A DNA stretch of 47,070 nucleotides. Source: Acidobacteria bacterium 13_1_20CM_3_53_8. Lineage in GTDB: Bacteria > Acidobacteriota > Blastocatellia > Pyrinomonadales > Pyrinomonadaceae. Below are positions 8,691 through 47,070 of the stretch, piece by piece. The notes under the pieces were generated by a model. That model was given only the letters and a program-made list of their open reading frames with translations, made no database searches and was not told where the DNA came from. How positions within the stretch are numbered: the first letter of the stretch is position 1; every line of letters starts with the position of its first letter. The translations under genes and the position numbers were made by a program. Where the stretch lies: NCBI GenBank assembly GCA_001920415.1, contig MNJR01000015.1, positions 3,410 through 50,479 on the forward strand, in the 5' to 3' direction.

Positions 8691-9029
8691 GAAGAGCAAG
8701 TAGGAAAGCGGAAGGATGAGAGATGAAAGAATAGTTACTTTAAGCCCGCGCAAGCGGGCGACAGCATAAAGCCCAGTGCGTTAGCACTGGGTAAAGATGG
8801 TAATTAAAATTAACGAAGCCCGCGTTAGCGGGCGACAGTGCGTAGTAATCAAAGGGCTGTCGCTATCTCCGATAGCTCTATTATTTTCTTGCTATCTCTA
8901 ACCCAGCCCTGACGGGCTGGGCTTTATTCTGTCGCCCGCTTGCGCGGGCTTAAACCCAAGTTTGCGTAAGATGAGTTACTCATCTTGAATAGCTACTGTT
9001 TCATCCTTCCGCCTTCCGCCTTGCTCTTC
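8691..9029. repeat. Composite nested inverted-repeat cassette D
   Basis: The outer arms are purine-rich (GAAGAGCAAG at 8691-8700 against CTTGCTCTTC at 9020-9029) and extend inward imperfectly through GAAGGATGA. Inside lie two oppositely oriented copies of a 51-nt double-hairpin unit, at 8742-8792 (+) and 8901-8951 (-). Each has a GC-rich hairpin, the linker GACAG(C/A)ATAAA and a second hairpin. Between them are a half-unit (about 8816-8837) and a GCTATC hairpin (about 8857-8877). Loops are GCAA, GTTA and GTCA. The cassette fills the region between the divergent DUF1992 and recG genes. Related cassettes lie at 19781-19989 and 38111-38465. Confidence 0.88.
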
Positions 9030-11473: not shown

Positions 11474-11613
11474 ACCACAGCAGAACACGGAGTCACACGG
11501 AGGAAGCACATAGAATTTTTAATCTTAAATTTCAAATCTGAAATCTCAAATTTGAGATTTGAAATTTCAAATTATCTATTCTTCTTCGGTGTAACTCCGT
11601 GTCCTGCGGTGGT
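11474..11613. repeat. Long inverted repeat, ACACGGAG family, with inner palindrome
   Basis: The arms 11474-11506 and 11581-11613 pair over about 33 bp with a handful of mismatches (ACCACAGCAGAACACGGAG against its complement). The loop (about 11526-11575) holds a second AT-rich palindrome built of AATTTCAAAT/GAAATCTCAAA units. It fills the gap between recG and the lipoprotein gene. Confidence 0.85.
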
Positions 11614-11677: not shown

Positions 11678-12829
11678 ATGATACTGATGAAAGCCCAGAA
11701 AATTTTCGTCACTTTACTGCTTCTTGCAACTCTCTTCGCGCCGGGTCTTGCCTGTCGCAAGCAGACGAGCAGCAATGCAAATGAGGTGCAGGCAATCGCA
11801 AACGTCGAGCCTTCCTTGAATCAAGGCACGAACGTAAACACAGCGCAGCATGGCGAGCAACAATTTTTTCACGGGAACATAGGCGAGCGCTCCGTCACCA
11901 TGCAGCTTAGCCGCGCGGGGCAGAATCTTTCCGGCACCTATTATTACGATGGCATCGGAAAGAACCTAACATTGAAAGGCACTGTTGACGCGGAAGGTAA
12001 CGCGACTCTGCAAGAATTTGACGAGAATGGAAAGCAGACCGGAAAGTTTAAAGGCAAGTTCGGCCATGATGAGGATTATGACTTCCAGTACACGTTCAGC
12101 GGCACTTGGACTAATCCAGCCGGAGGAGGCGAGACCACCTTCTCGCTCACCGAGCAGGATGTCAAATTCTCTGGTGGGCTGCGCATAGAAACCAAATTGA
12201 TCTCGGAGCGCAGGTTTCACTTGCGAGCAGCTTACCCGCAACTCGTTGGCGCGAGCCGTCCGGCCATCAACATATTCAACCAGAAAATCGCCGCGATGGT
12301 GATGAAGGAAGTAAGGGCATTCAGCGCCGAACCGCCACCGCCAAACGGCAACAACATCTATTTCGACGGGAATTACACAATGCTGCTAGGTGATGACGAC
12401 ATCGTTAGCGTATTGCTAAACGAGGAGTTCTATTATGGAGGCGCGCACCCTGACGTAGCTTTCCAGACTCTGACATTTGACCTACGCAATGCCAGAGAGA
12501 TTCAACTCGCCTCATTGTTCAAGCCTAGATCGAATTACAAGAAAGTCCTTCAGCAGAAAACGCTCGATAGCATCAACCGCAGTATCAAACGGGCAGAGCA
12601 GCAGGACGCGCAACCACCCGCCCAGCAACAGCAAGAGAATCCAGGCCTTTCACTGGACGAGCTTGGTGAAATTAGCGGGTGGGCTATGACGCGAAATGGG
12701 TTACTCATCTATCACGATTTACCGCACGTGATAGCTGCCTTCGACTTAGCTTTCATACCTTACAGCGAGCTTTCCGGCGTACTCGACCCGAATGGCCCAG
12801 CCGCGAAGTTTGCGAACAGGAGCCGGTGA
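11678..12829 (+). CDS. Lipoprotein with C-terminal DUF3298 (RsiV-like) domain
   Basis: A 383-residue exported lipoprotein. The signal peptide is followed by a lipobox (LFAPGLAC, Cys near residue 26). The middle holds a beta-rich segment (about residues 60-160, GTYYYDGIGKNLTLKG) like small solute or copper-type lipocalin domains, but I cannot name it. The C-terminal 190 residues fit DUF4163/DUF3298, with the typical FYYGGAHPDVAFQTLTFDL and LFKP patterns, as in RsiV, the lysozyme-binding anti-sigma factor. No cytoplasmic anti-sigma helix is present, so only the extracytoplasmic fold is shared. TTTGAGGTG lies 5 bases before the ATG at 11678, which favours it over the ATG at 11687. Confidence 0.85.
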   Translation: MILMKAQKIFVTLLLLATLFAPGLACRKQTSSNANEVQAIANVEPSLNQGTNVNTAQHGEQQFFHGNIGERSVTMQLSRAGQNLSGTYYYDGIGKNLTLKGTVDAEGNATLQEFDENGKQTGKFKGKFGHDEDYDFQYTFSGTWTNPAGGGETTFSLTEQDVKFSGGLRIETKLISERRFHLRAAYPQLVGASRPAINIFNQKIAAMVMKEVRAFSAEPPPPNGNNIYFDGNYTMLLGDDDIVSVLLNEEFYYGGAHPDVAFQTLTFDLRNAREIQLASLFKPRSNYKKVLQQKTLDSINRSIKRAEQQDAQPPAQQQQENPGLSLDELGEISGWAMTRNGLLIYHDLPHVIAAFDLAFIPYSELSGVLDPNGPAAKFANRSR

Positions 12830-13122
12830 AAAGAGAAGGGGAAAAGGGGAAGAATCAGGCAGTCAGTTAATACTAGGAGTTACGCAGTTGAACGAACAAG
12901 TCAGTACCGCCTGCGGTAGCGGGCGGGTCTGTTAGCAAAGTCAAAAGTAAAAAGGTAAAAGTGAGAAGAAGCCAATCTTTTTATTTGCCTTTTTACTTTT
13001 GACTTCTTCACCCGCCCGCTACCGCAGGCGGTACTGACAAGGCTTGCGCTTTTCTGTCAACTGCGTAACTCCTAAATACATCTACCTTTTACCCATTTAC
13101 CCTTTTCCCCCTTCTCTTTTCA
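12827..13122. repeat. Four concentric inverted repeats of different families
   Basis: From outside in: (1) a purine arm 12827-12849 (GAAAAGAGAAGGGGAAAAGG) against about 13100-13122; (2) a perfect 18-bp pair, 12874-12891 (TAGGAGTTACGCAGTTGA) with 13057-13074; (3) a perfect 29-bp GC-rich pair, 12900-12928 with 13010-13038; (4) an inner AAGTCAAAAGTAAAAAGG arm (about 12938-12962) with about 12983-13005, one mismatch. All share nearly the same centre. Layer 3 recurs alone at 13743-13838, and layer 4 belongs to the AAAAGGC family seen at 27.65, 45.6 and 46.95 kb. No gene is evident inside. Confidence 0.93.
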
Positions 13123-13180: not shown

Positions 13181-13738
13181 ATGCAGGTGCTAGCGGGGAA
13201 GTACAGAGGTAAACATCTACAGAGTTCCACGTCGCCCAGGGTACGCCCTACTGCGCGGCGTCTGCGCGAAACGCTCTTCGAGATTCTTGGCGCGCATGTG
13301 GAAGGCGCGCGTGTGCTAGACCTTTGCGCAGGTTCTGGCGCCATAGGCATCGAAGCGCTGTCGCGCGGCGCATCGCACGCGACGTTCATTGACCGCTCGC
13401 GCCGAATGTGCATGTTTATAAGAAGGAATCTTGAGATTTGCGGCGTGCCTGACGAGCAGGCGGAAATCGTCGAGAGCGATTGCATCTCATTTCTGAAAAA
13501 TTCTCTCAGAGAGCGTCGCAGAGCGTGGGACATAATATTTCTAGACCCTCCATACTCCGCAGACTATATCCCTGTTCTGACAAGATTAAGCTCAAGCAGG
13601 ATAATCAACAGAGCAGGCGGCGTGCTCGTAGCAGAGCACGAGCGTAGTCTTCAATTGCCTGAAGATGTGGGCCAACTGCGACGCTTTTACACTGTGAGCC
13701 AAGGGGAATCCTGTCTCAGTTTTTACGCTAGTGTGTGA
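13181..13738 (+). CDS. rsmD: RsmD-family 16S rRNA (guanine-N2-)-methyltransferase, copy 1
   Basis: RsmD methylates G966 of 16S rRNA using S-adenosylmethionine. This 185-residue protein has the family start (VLAGKYRGKHL, RPTARRLRETLFEIL), the SAM-binding motif VLDLCAGSGAIGIEALSRGA (about residues 44-63), and the catalytic DPPY in IIFLDPPYS (about 122-130). It ends in SCLSFY like its neighbour. A second rsmD-like gene follows at 13848, roughly half identical by eye. The ATG at 13181 has no clear ribosome site. The same 29-bp inverted repeat lies on both sides of this copy (12900-13038 and 13743-13838). Confidence 0.9.
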   Translation: MQVLAGKYRGKHLQSSTSPRVRPTARRLRETLFEILGAHVEGARVLDLCAGSGAIGIEALSRGASHATFIDRSRRMCMFIRRNLEICGVPDEQAEIVESDCISFLKNSLRERRRAWDIIFLDPPYSADYIPVLTRLSSSRIINRAGGVLVAEHERSLQLPEDVGQLRRFYTVSQGESCLSFYASV

Positions 13739-13742
13739 ATAG

Positions 13743-13838
13743 GTCAGTACCGCCTGCGGTAGCGGGCGGGTGTAATGTGCTTTGTGACTAGCTTGCAAAT
13801 CAAACCACGACCCGCCCGCTACCGCAGGCGGTACTGAC
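13743..13838. repeat. 29-bp perfect inverted repeat between the two rsmD genes
   Basis: 13743-13771 and 13810-13838 are exact reverse complements (GTCAGTACCGCCTGCGGTAG...) around a 38-nt loop. The arms are identical to layer 3 of the nest at 12900-13038, while the loop is unrelated. The right arm ends nine bases before the GTG start of the second rsmD, so the hairpin would cover its leader and could affect its translation. Confidence 0.95.
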
Positions 13839-13847
13839 GCCAACACT

Positions 13848-14399
13848 GTGCGAATCATTGCTGGAAAATATCGCGGTCGCGTCCTTCGTAGTCCACCATC
13901 AATGCAGGTGCGTCCGACTTCGGATCGCCTGCGCGAAACTCTCTTCAATGTCATAGCCCCGCGCATTGAAGATGCACGCTTCCTTGATCTTTGCGCAGGA
14001 TCGGGCGCTGTCGGAATAGAAGCACTATCGCGCGGCGCATCGCACGCGACCTTCGTTGATCACTCGCGCAAGATGTGCGGCCTCATTGAATCGAATCTGG
14101 ATTTGTGCCGCATACCCGAAGACGAAACCGAAGTGGTCAAGAGCGAAGCAGCAGAATTCCTGCGCCGTGCCTCGCGTGATGGCCGCGCGTGGGACATTGC
14201 CTTCTTCGACCCGCCATACTCAATTGATTACTCGCCCGCGCTCGCCGTCTTCGGCTCAAGCGAGATTTTGAGCACAGATGGCCTGCTCATTGTCGAGCAT
14301 CATCACAAGAACGAGTTGAAAGACAATTACGGCTCTATTCATAGAACACGCAGGCTCAAACAGGGCGACTCGTGTTTGAGTTTCTATGAAACGAAGTAG
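13848..14399 (+). CDS. rsmD: RsmD-family 16S rRNA (guanine-N2-)-methyltransferase, copy 2
   Basis: A 183-residue paralogue of the preceding gene, with all key motifs: IIAGKYRGRVLRS, RPTSDRLRETLFNVI, FLDLCAGSGAVGIEALSRGA and catalytic DPPY in IAFFDPPYS. It is closer to the family start pattern (M-R-I-I-A-G-K-Y-R-G) and is probably the better candidate for the housekeeping enzyme. Translation starts at a GTG nine bases after the inverted-repeat arm; the arm end (AGGCGGT) is the only purine-rich stretch that could serve as a ribosome site. Since both copies keep intact SAM and catalytic motifs, the duplication is either recent or the copies have diverged in target. Confidence 0.92.
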   Translation: MRIIAGKYRGRVLRSPPSMQVRPTSDRLRETLFNVIAPRIEDARFLDLCAGSGAVGIEALSRGASHATFVDHSRKMCGLIESNLDLCRIPEDETEVVKSEAAEFLRRASRDGRAWDIAFFDPPYSIDYSPALAVFGSSEILSTDGLLIVEHHHKNELKDNYGSIHRTRRLKQGDSCLSFYETK

Positions 14400-14975: not shown

Positions 14976-15046
14976 ATTTTCTTTCCCACAAGCACTCTAA
15001 AACTTCACGCCCGCGCCAGTCAAAAGTGTAAAGGCTAAAGTGTACG

Positions 15047-16945
15047 CTACTGAGTCCGCGCAACCGCCACAACGCGAAAACCTACGACGCCGTTGCTAAG
15101 GTCGGGCGCGAGGCCGATGAGGCGGGAGGCGGAGCGGCAATCGCCGTTGAGCCACGAATCGCCGCGCAACACCCGAAATTTTCCTCCTCCACTTATCCAT
15201 GCACTCCCGTCTGTTGGCGCTCCATTATAACTAAAACTATCATGAAACAAATCTTCGACCCACTCCCAAACATTCCCATGCATGTCGTATAATCCAAATC
15301 CATTTGGCTGCTTCTGCCCTACAGGGTGTGTCTGTCCTCCTGAATTATTTTTATACCAAGCCATCGAATCAAGATCGCCAGCGTAATCCCCTGACGTTCC
15401 CGCTCGACATGCGTACTCCCATTCCGCTTCCGTAGGCAATCTATAGGTATAGCCATCATTCATCGCATTCAACTTCTTGATGAACTCTTGCGCGTCGTTC
15501 CATGAAACATTCTCCACAGGACACTGGTCGCAGTTCTGAAAATGTGACGGATTATTTCCCATCATCTCTTGCCACATCTGTTTCCACTGCGCCTGCGTCA
15601 CCTCGTACTTGCCCATGTAGATCTGATAGTTAATCCTGACCTGGTGAACAGGCCTTTCAAAAGTAGCTCCATTATCCGAACCCATCATAAAACTTCCCGC
15701 CGGAATTAAAACGAACTCCATCCCGATGCTATTCTTCACCGATTGGGGAAGATTAGCTGTAGCAGGCATTCCAGATGGTTTAACGTTTTCCCTGCTGCTA
15801 TTCAATACCCACACAACCGTGCCGACAACTAAGAGAAATACCAATAGAGCGCCGACAATAAGCGGCACGCGCTTGGATTTACTCTGGCGCGGCGCTGCGC
15901 TGTCTCCGAATGATAAAGCAGCAGGCGGCACAACTTGAGCAGGAATCGTTGGCGCTGGCCGAGCATGAGCGGATGCGTCGAGCATCAATTCCTGCGCTGC
16001 GTTTGCATCCAAAACTTCTGTCGGAGGCAAGTTTGCGGACTGCGCTCTGCTCTGCGCCTCATTCGCCGCGATGGTCTGCGCTGGCACAGTCACGGCGGGC
16101 GCTTGCAAGGCTTCACGCAACTCGCGCGCAAACTCCGTAGCATCACGCTGCCGCTCCTCACGGTCTTTGGCGAGCGAGCGCATGATGACCCGTTCGAGCG
16201 CGGGATTCGCGCCAGCGCTTTTAGGCAATGGCGGCACGGCGTCGAAGAGATGGCGCGTGATTAAGCCCATAGGCGTATCAGCAGTGAAGGGCGGTTCGCC
16301 CGCAAGCATCTCGTAAACAATCGCGCCGAGACTATAGACGGCGTGCCCATCACCATGCCCGTCTGCGTCAGAGTCGTCACGCCCGCAGCATCGCGCAGTT
16401 TGGCTATGCCGAAGTCAACGACCTTCACGGTCTCGCGCTCGCGGTCTTCGTCCGGCGCAAGCACTATTACGTTGTCCGGCTTGAGGTCACGGTGAAAGAT
16501 GCCCTTGCGATGCGCCGCGCCGACTCCTGCACAGATGTCTCTCATCAAAGAGACTGCGCGCTCCGGCGCTAAACTCTTCTCTCTACGCAACAACTCGCGC
16601 AGAGACTCGCCCTCAATCAACTCCATGACGATGTAGGCTGGCGCGTCCGCGCCGCGCGCTTCGCTCATGTCAATGATCTGGACTATGTTCGGATGGCGCA
16701 ACTGTGCTGCGGCTCGCGCCTCACGACGGAAGCGTTCGAGCATCGTTACATCCGCAACGAACTGTTTATTCAGAACCTTGACGGCCACCTCGTCGCCTAT
16801 GTGCACGCGACGAGCGCGATAGACAATCCCCATCCCACCCACGCCTAAGCGCTCTAGTAGAAAATATTTTCCGTCGAGAGTTTGGTTGAGAAGCGTGTCG
16901 GCTTGCAGTTGAGCTTTCTCTTGATTATCGGCGGGGACAGATCAT
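15047..16945 (-). pseudogene. Ser/Thr protein kinase with C-terminal SUMF1 domain, frameshifted twice
   Basis: The pieces of one gene are clear. An ATG at 16945 with GAGGAC 8 bases upstream starts MICPR, the beginning of a zinc ribbon, then hits a stop. A second frame continues ADNQEKAQLQ...LDGKYFLLERLGVGGMG, the kinase N-lobe, with KVL, FHRDLKPDN and VDFGIAK. At about 16355 the frame is lost right after MVMGTP. The third frame resumes at YSLGAIVYEMLAG, so the SPE-containing end of the activation segment (about 19-20 residues) is missing. It then runs through a membrane helix (VPLIVGALLVFLLVVGTVVWV) and a SUMF1/formylglycine-generating-like domain (NYQIYMGKYEVTQAQW, YRLPTEAEWEYACRAG, LYDMHGNVWEWVED, GFRVVA). 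The product cannot be an active kinase as written. Assembly error is the alternative. Confidence 0.85.
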
Positions 16946-18848: not shown

Positions 18849-18932
18849 CCAGTCTCCGCAAAAGTGTAAAGACCAAAGTGTACACTACTGAGTCCGCGCA
18901 GCCGCCACAACACGAAAACCTATGTCGAAAAT
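18849..18932 (-). pseudogene. Remnant of the 3' end of a second SUMF1-domain gene
   Basis: On the minus strand, 18929-18885 encodes a C-terminal fragment FDIGFRVVAAARTQ ending in TAG, nearly identical to the last residues of the SUMF1 protein at 15047 (GFRVVAVARTQ). The match continues past the stop into the downstream spacer (18849-18884 against 15016-15046: AAAAGTGTAAAG...AAAGTGTAC). Upstream of the fragment the similarity ends abruptly. This is a truncated copy of the neighbouring locus and has no start codon. Confidence 0.85.
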
Positions 18933-22862: not shown

Positions 22863-22924
22863 AAGGGGAATTTCGGTCGAAGTAAAATATTCAGATACGA
22901 TATGAGCGCGCTTTAAATCCTCTT

Positions 22925-23042
22925 AGCGAGCTTAAGTTTTTAACTTTGCGCCTTTGCGAGAACCATCAATTCACATGAATCTTGAGCATTGAGAGAATTG
23001 CAGGTTCTCGCAAAGGCGCAAAGGAAAATGCTTAAGCTCGCT
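22925..23042. repeat. Inverted repeat, GCGCAAAGG family
   Basis: The arms 22925-22964 and 23003-23042 pair over 40 bp with about five mismatches (AGCGAGCTTAAG...TTTGCGCCTTTGCGAGAACC, written in part), around a 38-nt loop. The core CTTTGCGCCTTTGCG is shared with the element at 44088-44233. It lies between two kinase genes; nothing else is evident in 22863-23135. Confidence 0.92.
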
Positions 23043-23135
23043 ATGAGTTGGATGTCTTCTCACAGTTTGAGTAAATCTCGAAAAGCGTCTCCGTTTCGAC
23101 ACCATTTTAGATGAGTTGAGCCGCCGAGCGCCACA

Positions 23136-26839: not shown

Positions 26840-27673
26840 ATGTCACAACTTAGCCCCGAACAATTAGCGAGATATGAACGCAATGGCTTTCTGGTGATTG
26901 AAGATTTCTGTAAGGCTTCGGACTGCGAACGGTTGCGTGCGCGCGTTGAGGTGCTGGTCGCAGAGTTCGACCCAAGAGTTGTCTCAATCTTTTCCACGCG
27001 CCAGCAGACGCGTTCGAGCGATGAATATTTTTTGGAATCAGGCGATAAGATTCGCTTCTTTTTCGAGGAAGAGGCGTTCGGCGCGGAAGGAAATTTGCGC
27101 GAGCCGAAGGAGCACTCGATTAACAAGATAGGCCACGCGCTCCATGATCTCGATCCTGTCTTCAAAGAATTTTCCCTAAACCCTGAACTGGTAGAGTTGG
27201 TCGTGGATTTAGGATTCTCGCGCCCGCTTATCTTGCAGTCCATGTACATCTTCAAGCAGCCGGGCATTGGCGGCGAAGTCACATGCCATCAGGACGCGAC
27301 GTTTCTCTACACAGAGCCGCTCGGCTCTGTCGTCGGTCTATGGTTCGCGCTCGAAGATGCCACGCGCGAGAACGGTTGTCTGTGGGCAATTCCCGGCGGT
27401 CACAAAATTGGACTCAAATCTCGCTTCGTTCGCGCGCCGGAAGGCGGAACTCGCTTTGAGATTTTTGATGACAGCGCATGGCCGCTCGATCAACTCGTGC
27501 CGTTGGAAGTTAAGAAAGGCGCGCTCATAGTCCTGCACAGTCTTCTACCGCACATGAGCCACGCCAACAGATCAACGAAATCACGCCACGCCTACACGCT
27601 ACATTTCATGGAGAGCGACTGCCACTACGCTTCGGACAACTGGCTGCAAAGAAAGGCAAAAGTAAAAAGGTAA
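26840..27673 (+). CDS. Phytanoyl-CoA dioxygenase (PhyH) family protein
   Basis: A 277-residue Fe(II)/2-oxoglutarate-dependent oxygenase. The iron-binding His-x-Asp is in TCHQDATFLY (about residues 152-161), and the distal His and 2-oxoglutarate-binding Arg are in LHSLLPHMSHANRSTKSRHA (about 237-256). The N-terminal YERNGFLVIEDFC opening is typical of PhyH. The substrate cannot be read from the sequence. The last residues (RKAKVKR) and the TAA stop are encoded by the AAAAGGC repeat arm that begins at 27651, so the original C-terminus may have been replaced. It converges on dnaJ. Confidence 0.9.
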   Translation: MSQLSPEQLARYERNGFLVIEDFCKASDCERLRARVEVLVAEFDPRVVSIFSTRQQTRSSDEYFLESGDKIRFFFEEEAFGAEGNLREPKEHSINKIGHALHDLDPVFKEFSLNPELVELVVDLGFSRPLILQSMYIFKQPGIGGEVTCHQDATFLYTEPLGSVVGLWFALEDATRENGCLWAIPGGHKIGLKSRFVRAPEGGTRFEIFDDSAWPLDQLVPLEVKKGALIVLHSLLPHMSHANRSTKSRHAYTLHFMESDCHYASDNWLQRKAKVKR

Positions 27674-27774
27674 AAGGTAAAAGGAAGGCTGAAACCAGCT
27701 TTTAATAAAATTTTGGCTTCCCCTCACTTTTGCCTTTTTACTTTTACCTTTTGCCTTCCCTTTACTTTTGCCTT
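27651..27774. repeat. Inverted repeat, AAAAGGC heptamer family, between phyH-like gene and dnaJ
   Basis: The left arm, about 27651-27698 (GGCAAAAGTAAAAAGGTAAAA and further units), pairs with the right arm, about 27715-27774 (units CTTTTGCCTTTTTACTTTTA). The loop is about 16-20 nt. The phyH-like stop codon lies in the left arm and the dnaJ stop codon touches the end of the right arm, so the two convergent genes meet in one hairpin that could end transcription from both sides. Confidence 0.88.
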
Positions 27775-35041: not shown

Positions 35042-35605
35042 ATGGCTATACCGGCAACACAGATTAGGCGCGGGATGGTTATCCTCTTCGAGGGACAGCC
35101 CTGCAAAGTTATTGAATTCCGTCACCACACGCCCGGCAACTTGCGCGCTATGGTTCAGACGAAGCTACGCAACATTCGCACGGGTTCGACGTTCGAGCAC
35201 AGGTTTCGCTCTGCGGATACAGTCGAGCGCGCAAATCTCGAACAGCACGAGATGGAGTATCTCTATTCTGACGGCTCGCATCATCATTTCATGAACACGG
35301 AGAATTACGAGCAGATAGGATTGAGCGCAGACGATCTGGGCGATGCGGTCGAGTGGCTGACGCCGGGGCTTAAGATTCAGACGGAGTTTTACGAAGGCGC
35401 ACCCATAGGCATTGATCTACCTCCTTCTATGGAGTTAACGGTCGTCCAGACAGAGCCGTCGCTCAAAGGCGCGACCGTCTCGAACGTCAACAAACCGGCG
35501 ACGCTCGAAAATGGCGCGACCGTTCAAGTCCCACCCTTCATAAACGAAGGCGACCGCATACGAGTTGACCCGCGCGAAGGGCGCTACATCGAAAGAGCAA
35601 AGTAA
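35042..35605 (+). CDS. efp: Elongation factor P
   Basis: EF-P rescues ribosomes stalled at polyproline. The 187-residue protein has three OB/KOW-like domains: the start [20 protein letters not shown], the domain I loop [15 protein letters not shown], and the end [20 protein letters not shown]. The loop-tip residue aligned with modified Lys34 of the E. coli protein is Asn33 here, so beta-lysylation at that position is excluded. GGAG lies about 12 bases before the ATG. The stop is followed at once by the repeat at 35609. Confidence 0.96.
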
Positions 35606-35608
35606 GAA

Positions 35609-35697
35609 GAGCAGTTTTCAGTTTTTAGTTTTCAGTTTTCAGTAAAAACTTTCTTCTTCTATCTGAAAACTGAAAACTAAAAACTAAAAACTGTCCT
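35609..35697. repeat. Inverted repeat, TTTTCAG heptamer family (copy P)
   Basis: The left arm (35609-35642, units TTTTCAG/TTTTTAG) pairs with the right arm (about 35663-35695, units CTGAAAA/CTAAAAA). The loop GTAAAAACTTTCTTCTTCT is the reverse complement of the loop in the copy at 42630-42731. It lies between efp and waaA. Confidence 0.93.
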
Positions 35698-35705
35698 TAT
35701 CACTC

Positions 35706-42593: not shown

Positions 42594-42629
42594 CTGCCCG
42601 CGCCGCTCGAAAGCGATTAAAAGCAGTGA

Positions 42630-42731
42630 TAAGAGCAGTTTTCAGTTTTTAGTTTTCAGTTTTCAGTTTTCAGATAGAAGAAGAAAGTTTTTACTTAAAA
42701 CTGAAAACTAAAAACTGAAAACTGCTCTTAT
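42630..42731. repeat. Inverted repeat, TTTTCAG heptamer family (copy Q)
   Basis: The left arm (about 42630-42672, units TTTTCAG/TTTTTAG) pairs with the right arm (about 42694-42731, units CTGAAAA/CTAAAAA). The loop AGAAGAAGAAAGTTTTTAC is the reverse complement of the loop of copy P at 35609-35697, so the two are the same element in opposite orientation. The TAA of atpB lies in its right arm. Confidence 0.94.
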
Positions 42732-44087: not shown

Positions 44088-44233
44088 ATTTCAAATCATC
44101 TTTGCGAGCTTTGCTCTTTTCTTTGCGCCTTTGCGTGAACCTGCAACTCTTAATAAGCTCGACTTTGATGAAAATTGCAGGTTCTCGCAAAGGCGCAAAG
44201 GGAAAACCAAAGCTCGCTAAGATGGTTTGAAAT
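44088..44233. repeat. 59-bp-arm inverted repeat, GCGCAAAGG family, between atpZ and atpI
   Basis: 44088-44146 pairs with 44175-44233 over 59 positions with about eight mismatches around a 28-nt loop. The core CTTTGCGCCTTTGCG and the AGCGAGCTT or GCGAGCTTTG outer block are shared with the element at 22925-23042. It interrupts the atp gene string. Confidence 0.94.
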
Positions 44234-45608: not shown

Positions 45609-45620
45609 GTCTTATTAGAA

Positions 45621-45743
45621 GGCAAAAGTAAAAAGGTAAAAGGCAAAAGTTAGGCGGAAACCACTTTTTAAGATTTAGAGAGAAAGAGTAATAGAATTTC
45701 TTTCATCCTTATCCCTTTTGCCTTTTACCTTTTTACTTTTGCC
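45621..45743. repeat. 29-bp perfect inverted repeat, AAAAGGC heptamer family (T)
   Basis: 45621-45649 and 45715-45743 are exact reverse complements (GGCAAAAGTAAAAAGGTAAA... in part) around a 65-nt AT-rich loop. The stop codon and last residues of the glycosyltransferase come from the right arm. The same 29-mer occurs at 46950-46978. Confidence 0.95.
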
Positions 45744-46944
45744 TTTTCATAATGTCAGTTTCCGTCGGCGATTTCAATTCGTAAGTAAGCCCGCGCCAGA
45801 CGATTTTTTGGGAAAGCGCAGCAGCGATAGCATTATGAAGATAGATGAAAGTCGCAAGCGGCCAGAGGAACAGATGCGCAAACTGTCCGCGCTTTAACCC
45901 TGCGGCGTGCTGAGCCAGAGGCAGTTTTATTGCCCTCCAGCGCACGTATGATTTCGCAATGCCGAGCAAGTAAATTACTATAAGCAAAATAATGGCGATG
46001 AGTACGGGTTTATGTTGAAACGCGCGAGTTGTGACCAAGATGATGCCACCAAAGAAAATTAGAACGAAGAATGCGCTTCCTGCAAAAACAGCTTTCCAGA
46101 GATGCGTGGCATAGACACGCGTGATCTTCAATTGTCGCGTAGTGAATTCCAGAAGCTCTGTGAAGCTGCAATCTTCAAATGAAGCTGTCAGGCAGTCTGG
46201 CACGAAATGAATAGGAAGATGTTCTTGTTGTAAAGCTCGCGTCAGCGCGAAATCGTCCGAGAGAGTTCCGCGCCAGCGCTCGCGCATATTCAATCGCTCG
46301 AAAGTCTCGCGGCGGATTGCTGTAGCGCCTCCCCAGCAGAAATTTTTCTCCCTTTGCGATCCTAATGCTGATGCGATTGAAGCGTTCCAAACAGAGCGCA
46401 TGTGTGACCAAAATCCGCCGCGCACAGGGATGAACCAGCGATACCCGCTCGCCGCTCCGACCGTTTCATCAGCAAGCGGCGCGATGAGTGAACCGAGCCA
46501 ACTCGCGTGCGGTCTCGCGTCGGTGTCAACGAAGACGAGAACTAGGCTCTCAGGATTAATCTCTTTAACGGCTGCGCGCAGGTTATGAACTTTCTGCCCG
46601 CTCTCAGTTGTTACGCCTGCAATGACAACACGCGAGTTAATCGAACGTAAGGATGCAAAATCACTCCTTACTTTTTCAACCAAAGCTAGCGCCGGGTCGT
46701 TTGCGCTGTCTGTGACGAAAAGAATTTCATAGGCCGGATAATCAAGCCGCCATAGAGCGCGCAAATTCTCTTCCAATCCCTGATCCAATCCTCTGCACGG
46801 CGCTATGATGGAAGCTGGCGGGGTGAAGTCTGACCCTTCTTTCTTCATCTCGTGGCGCACGTACTTAAGAAATTCTAGTCCGCCTTTCAGCGAACTGATG
46901 CCGAGCACGACTAGAACGAGAGCGAAGAAATAGAATGCCAACAT
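45733..46944 (-). CDS. Family 2 glycosyltransferase, HpnI/ceramide glucosyltransferase-like
   Basis: A 403-residue membrane glycosyltransferase. An N-terminal helix (AFYFFALVLVVLGISSL) is followed by the GT2 catalytic region: PASIIAPCRGLDQGLEENL, DTDARPHASWLGSL (DxD-like), WGGATAIRRETFERL, LSDDFALTRALQ (the ED/DD motif) and a variant of QxxRW (RQLKITRVY). Three or four helices follow at the C-terminus. This resembles ceramide glucosyltransferase/HpnI-type proteins that glycosylate lipids. The last residues (MKRQK) and stop come from the repeat arm. The neighbouring radical SAM gene suggests a shared lipid-modification role, but this is only a guess. Confidence 0.85.
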   Translation of the reverse strand: MLAFYFFALVLVVLGISSLKGGLEFLKYVRHEMKKEGSDFTPPASIIAPCRGLDQGLEENLRALWRLDYPAYEILFVTDSANDPALALVEKVRSDFASLRSINSRVVIAGVTTESGQKVHNLRAAVKEINPESLVLVFVDTDARPHASWLGSLIAPLADETVGAASGYRWFIPVRGGFWSHMRSVWNASIASALGSQREKNFCWGGATAIRRETFERLNMRERWRGTLSDDFALTRALQQEHLPIHFVPDCLTASFEDCSFTELLEFTTRQLKITRVYATHLWKAVFAGSAFFVLIFFGGIILVTTRAFQHKPVLIAIILLIVIYLLGIAKSYVRWRAIKLPLAQHAAGLKRGQFAHLFLWPLATFIYLHNAIAAALSQKIVWRGLTYELKSPTETDIMKRQK

Positions 46945-46949
46945 AGAAA

Positions 46950-47070
46950 GGCAAAAGTAAAAAGGTAAAAGGCAAAAGTTAGGACAAAGCCTTCGCCTCT
47001 AATTTTTAATTTATAATTCACGCCTGCAAGGCGTGTCCACACTTTTGACTTTTACCTTTTTACTTTTGCC
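46950..47070. repeat. Inverted repeat, AAAAGGC heptamer family (U), to the window edge
   Basis: 46950-46978 (same 29-mer as at 45621-45649) pairs with 47042-47070 with one mismatch. The loop contains a small GCCTGCAAGGC hairpin. The element may extend past the window. Confidence 0.92.

Follow-up and report, generated by a model that had tools for sequence, protein, structure and literature searches.

The region described here lies in a 47,070-nt stretch of contig MNJR01000015.1 (hereafter the window) from Acidobacteria bacterium 13_1_20CM_3_53_8, at the end of a PdaC-like open reading frame, and is followed by two RsmD-like (Cons_hypoth95) genes (13181–13738 and 13848–14399), which are adjacent, about 53% identical and separated by a REPIN. 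Several relatives also possess two adjacent RsmD-like copies, and in the relative G006 (locus L037) another heptamer-type hairpin is found between them. A direct repeat of 69 bp with 90% identity is located further downstream (15021–15089 and 18859–18927, 3.8 kb apart). An earlier note, made from the sequence alone, had claimed four concentric inverted repeats at 12827–13122, and these are real: all arm pairs are present (Table 1), with centres at 12974.5, 12974, 12969 and 12971.5 for layers 1 to 4, all within 6 bases. From outside to inside they are a purine pair, the pair TAGGAGTTACGCAGTTGA, the REP arms and the AAGTCAAAAGTAAAAAGG pair. Folded as single-stranded DNA the nest reaches −102.5 kcal/mol, compared to a mean of −34.5 for 100 dinucleotide shuffles (z = −17.3).

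Table 1: Features of the nested hairpin and its surroundings (positions in the window).
Feature	Position	Strand	Remarks
Left arm of layer 1, a GA-rich hairpin where the PdaC-like upstream ORF ends	12827..12849	+	pairs with 13100–13122; 23 nt, 91% complementary; overlaps the TGA stop
AATAC, left copy of the target duplication	12869..12873	+	5 bp
Y element, 201-bp MITE with IS701-type ends (TAGGAGTTACGCAGTTG...)	12874..13074	+	holds REPIN and inner hairpin; a relative carries an IS701-family parent
Layer 2, left terminal inverted repeat of Y	12874..12891	+	18 bp, perfect
Layer 3, left REP arm of the REPIN	12900..12928	+	29 bp, perfect
Layer 4, left arm; heptamer-repeat hairpin within the REPIN spacer	12938..12959	+	22 nt, 95%
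Layer 4, right arm	12984..13005	+	
Layer 3, right REP arm of the REPIN	13010..13038	+	
Layer 2, right terminal inverted repeat of Y	13057..13074	+	
AATAC, right copy of the target duplication	13075..13079	+	
Layer 1, right arm	13100..13122	+	
Second copy of the same REPIN, between the two RsmD-like genes	13743..13838	.	no MITE; 38-nt spacer

The intergenic DNA of this genome is full of hairpins. A sample of 40 stretches plus the window, 814 kb of the 6.1-Mb draft genome, contains 363 of them (about one per 2 kb), 323 mostly outside open reading frames; with the same finder 147 kb of locally shuffled sequence yielded no hit. Within the window, intergenic hairpins at 2349–2457, 27648–27762, 35601–35704, 42629–42731, 45612–45752 and 46950–47070 have arms made of degenerate 7- or 8-base tandem repeats with the units CAGTTTT, GGTAAAA and GGGGACGC, and such heptamer-type hairpins often begin at or beside a stop codon. 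The CTTTGCGCCTTTGCG hairpin family is present at 22920–23047 and 44088–44233 and elsewhere in the genome (L065:14197, L075, L082:15492 and others); its arms are well matched, its loop is partly conserved (ACATGAATCTTAAG-like) and both orientations are seen. Further concentric nests lie at 8691–9029 and 11474–11613, where GAAGAGCAAG arms enclose a TTTAAGCCCGCG/AGCACTGGG composite and ACCACAGCAGAACACGG arms enclose TAATCTTAAATTTC. That the inner families of the nest also exist alone in the window is correct for the REPIN (13743–13838) and for the heptamer hairpins (27652–27751, 45612–45752 and 46950–47070) but not for the 18-bp pair, which never occurs alone there.

A 201-bp unit with IS701-type ends, a REPIN and an inner hairpin

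The TAGGAGTTACGCAGTTG ends of layer 2 form inverted pairs throughout the genome that nearly always enclose the 29-bp pair. Of this element, named Y, 25 complete copies are present, and in 18 of them both flanks carry an exact direct repeat of at least 5 bp, with a chance expectation of about 0.1% per site; the copy in the window is flanked by AATAC. In the relative G007 an intact autonomous element with these ends and the duplication CATTG, about 1,044 bp long, encodes a DDE transposase of the IS701 family (NF049921, E = 2e-111). MITEs of about 100–125 bp with Y ends and no REPIN are found in the genome studied here (L093:9649–9751, duplication GAATG) as well as in G007, G068, G014, G027 and G036 (relatives' loci L140–142, L147, L152, L153 and L157). 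The MITE interior measures 28 nt in REPIN-bearing Y copies versus about 70 nt in the REPIN-less MITEs, so that the REPIN replaced interior sequence and did not enter cleanly. Layers 2, 3 and 4 are one 201-bp non-autonomous transposon, a MITE of an IS701-family element. An IS701-family transposase acting in trans would have moved it, as the matching ends and the target duplications suggest. No match to an IS701 transposase of the G007 type was found in the draft genome of the organism itself (G000; 155 contigs, about 96% complete), and the mobiliser of Y may therefore be lost, unassembled or different.

Target duplications are typical of DDE transposition, while single-strand insertion of the IS200/IS605 type leaves none and prefers single-stranded or hairpin DNA. 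The duplicated target sites of Y consequently point to a DDE transposase and not to a single-strand TnpA.

Layer 3 is a REPIN: it consists of inverted REP pairs with a less conserved spacer, and a RAYT gene is flanked by the same REP. The GTCAGTACCGCCTGCGGTAGCGGGCGGGT REP occurs in 132 forward and 130 reverse copies in this genome, mostly as inverted pairs, and the REPIN of layer 3 amounts to about 65 copies per genome. In short-loop Y copies the REP arms are 99.8% identical and the spacers 65% (shuffled 49%); nearly invariant arms and variable spacers have also been published for REPINs (PMC3116915). The search for a RAYT gene proposed in the earlier note was successful: a RAYT of 169 aa (L034/L097, G000:C23:1876–2590) has REPINs on both flanks, carries the HxH motif as HAH in NHAHVVV and matches the Y1_Tnp profile PF01797 with 25.9 bits (cut-off 23). 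The NCBIfam model REP_Tyr_transpos (NF047646) recognises it weakly, with 25.7 bits against a cut-off of 80, and we regard it as a divergent RAYT member. Its orthologues are almost confined to Pyrinomonadaceae and other Blastocatellia or Acidobacteria MAGs, and at least seven orthologue loci (L159, L160, L165, L169, L177, L179 and L182) have REP-like motifs on both flanks. Within the family, 58 of 119 genomes and 21 of 29 genera contain the REP motif itself; among the matches listed it starts with GTACC in some genomes and with GAACC in others, as expected for concerted evolution.

The heptamer-repeat hairpin that forms layer 4 occupies the REPIN spacer. It recurs in the REPINs of five other Y copies (L073, L080, L082, L089 and L090) and partially in two more (L070 and L085), and one REPIN outside any Y element (L103:6277) also contains an inner hairpin of the window type. 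Unrelated hairpins occupy the spacers of other REPINs (L023, L089:13904, L079:18802, L070:6288 and L092). A literature search on cyanobacterial heptamer repeats and on nested MITE/REP systems in bacteria returned nothing useful.

History of the locus

A search with the 201-bp unit, extended by 300 bp of flanking sequence to the left and right, gave block copies at L073 (90.7% over 216 bp) and L080 (91% over 202 bp), whose match to the window starts or stops at the ends of Y and whose flanks are unrelated. When the unit and one AATAC are removed from the window, what remains is a plain purine hairpin of 90 nt whose spacer is intact and whose predicted RNA folding energy is −35 kcal/mol. As the upstream gene adjoins rsmD in none of the relatives' loci compared (rsmD being present in 59 of 60 relatives), these loci offer no empty site for comparison. 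We distinguish two steps, both of which the sequence shows. First, a heptamer-type hairpin, the present layer 1, was resident at the end of the upstream gene, like others across the genome, and it is older than the composite unit. Second, the IS701-ended MITE, preloaded with the REPIN and a heptamer hairpin, entered the spacer of layer 1 as a unit and duplicated AATAC, layers 2, 3 and 4 having moved as one block into the gap of the older hairpin.

Serial insertion, in which each younger hairpin lands in the loop of an older one, had been considered the simplest explanation of the nest and holds only in part. The nest did arise through insertion, and the older hairpin could be recovered with its spacer undamaged, but the layers did not land successively at this site: layers 2 to 4 form a block with copies elsewhere, the match ending at the MITE ends. 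Movement of the whole block as one unit, which the earlier note had named as the finding that would speak against its own explanation, is what we see for these three layers. Serial nesting did take place earlier, during assembly of the unit.

How the unit was assembled is suggested by the frames in which REPINs are found. At least three MITE families (X, Y and Z), perhaps also a fourth (L100:14054), have REPINs at their centre, and 31 of 47 REPINs, about two thirds in this sample, lie within MITEs. In relatives the centre of Y is filled by other hairpins (L145, L146, L149, L150, L151, L155 and L158), and X in G036 likewise contains another hairpin (L210 and L217). Y copies with identical flanking spacers (AACGAACAG / ACAGAAAAGCGCAAGCCTT) have different cores, one and the same core recurs in Y copies of differing spacer subtype, and core types are seen in either orientation. 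A MITE would keep its mobility only after insertions that leave its ends untouched; central hairpins would then be the ones that get copied, and this could account for the concentricity. Later the cores may have been exchanged or flipped via the identical 29-bp REP arms, either by homologous recombination or by the RAYT, and the data fit RAYT re-insertion and recombination alike. Taken as a whole, a resident hairpin followed by entry of a composite MITE as a unit, together with survivorship and core exchange, is in our opinion the probable history of this locus. More tentatively, and with some doubt on our side, the 29-bp REP arms might serve as a docking slot through which cores enter, leave and invert within MITEs that are otherwise alike; RAYT/REPIN and DDE-transposon MITEs would then form a composite with exchangeable cargo, and other genera of the family would use the same MITE slot for their own hairpin families.

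New cores could also arise symmetrically within old arms by replacement of hairpin tips through template switching, when a polymerase strays from one hairpin arm onto a different hairpin during replication and subsequently uses its own strand as template. At L092:9877 both REP arms are cut at nearly equal depth (about 13 nt) around a GGATGAG hairpin, the spacer ends at L089:9619 are perfectly complementary (CTGTTAGCAAAG at each end), and where a new core is present the old spacer is not visibly kept. Such switching may explain L092 and L089 but not the window, where 9 nt separate the REP arm from the inner arm on one side and 4 nt on the other; these asymmetric junctions are not complementary, unlike the products of self-templated copying. 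As it also leaves the target duplication of the outer step unexplained, we consider it unlikely for the nest.

Landing inside hairpins

The earlier note further suggested an insertion mechanism that favours hairpin loops. A RAYT/TnpA-like activity seeking hairpin loops or single-stranded DNA would place each layer into the previous loop, and the REPIN-flanked RAYT with its HxH motif, the at least five unrelated hairpins in REPIN spacers and a census with 57 nested hairpins in loops and none in arms would fit such an activity. This census is biased, however, because leftover bases such as target duplications break the ungapped arm test, and the 57 include many copies of one and the same composite. 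An arm insertion was indeed found by eye, one further Y copy being located in the arm of a CTTTGCGCC hairpin (L086:16251). When flanks forming an inverted repeat with a score of at least 12 were counted as "inside", 4 of 25 Y sites lie inside an older inverted repeat compared to 14.4% of 500 random noncoding points, and none of the 16 REPINs outside X, Y and Z MITEs does (null 12.2%). The list of X insertions, in which some false hits are heptamer hairpins, shows no excess either. Elements fall inside hairpins at the rate predicted by chance, and this is to be expected, as about 10% of the noncoding bases are innermost hairpin spacer and another 17% hairpin arm. Single-strand insertion of the IS200/IS605 type was accordingly rejected, as Y has target duplications and neither Y nor the REPINs outside these MITE families show an excess in loops. 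With layers 2 to 4 forming one moving block and with duplications typical of a DDE enzyme, loop-seeking serial insertion is very improbable, and a preference for loops is not borne out. Selection of the whole four-layer structure as one functional DNA or RNA element (a terminator or an mRNA-stabilising hairpin) would suit its very stable fold and its intergenic position at a stop codon, but is the least credible of these alternatives, as the 201-bp unit occurs elsewhere with unrelated flanks, only some of its copies are enclosed by another hairpin, and the target duplication indicates that the outer arms are unrelated to the unit.

Relation to known systems and significance

Nests of this kind have relatives in the literature, and the impression that no such concentric nesting had been described was wrong. 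Di Nocera et al. (2013, PMC3733652) described REP dimers inside longer palindromes as GTAG-15 from Anabaena variabilis, CGTC-1 from Halothiobacillus neapolitanus and GTAG-23 from Thermomicrobium roseum, and encountered no REP-free target palindromes in the first two of these species. As in these cases a REP dimer is central in an unrelated longer palindrome with many copies; in contrast, the outer palindromes described here are at least three MITE families, one of them with an IS parent, target duplications and REPIN-less forms. In organelle DNA of Volvox carteri (PMC2670323) short hairpins are inserted in others, and larger units sometimes occur at several places. The hairpin within a hairpin is common to both systems, whereas the Volvox case concerns organelle genomes, and MITE ends or a RAYT are not described in the passages concerned. 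With the REPIN–RAYT systems (Bertels and Rainey 2011, PMC3116915) our elements share the inverted REP doublet, the less conserved spacer, the high copy number and a repeat-flanked RAYT, but they differ in that about two thirds of the REPINs are inside MITEs and some spacers hold other hairpins. Y resembles IS701-family MITEs in its 17-bp ends shared with an intact IS701-type element, its 5-bp duplications and its lack of coding capacity, while its centre consists of exchangeable hairpins and not of IS-derived sequence. What appears to be new is that the frame is identified as IS701-type, with target duplications and forms lacking the REPIN, that a single frame accommodates a range of cores, and that different hairpin families of related genera have come to fill the same MITE centre in parallel.

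In summary, elaborate nested hairpins can result from ordinary transposition, as a MITE would tolerate cargo only centrally and the copied hairpins would thus be concentric. For the association of REPs with palindromes, known from a few lines published in 2013 and left unexplained there, a parent element can now be named, and both REPIN-less forms and target duplications can be shown. Core exchange between identical MITE frames would make REPIN mobility testable by natural markers, and with a hairpin every 2 kb or so the genome of this acidobacterium is a good system for the spread of intergenic hairpins.
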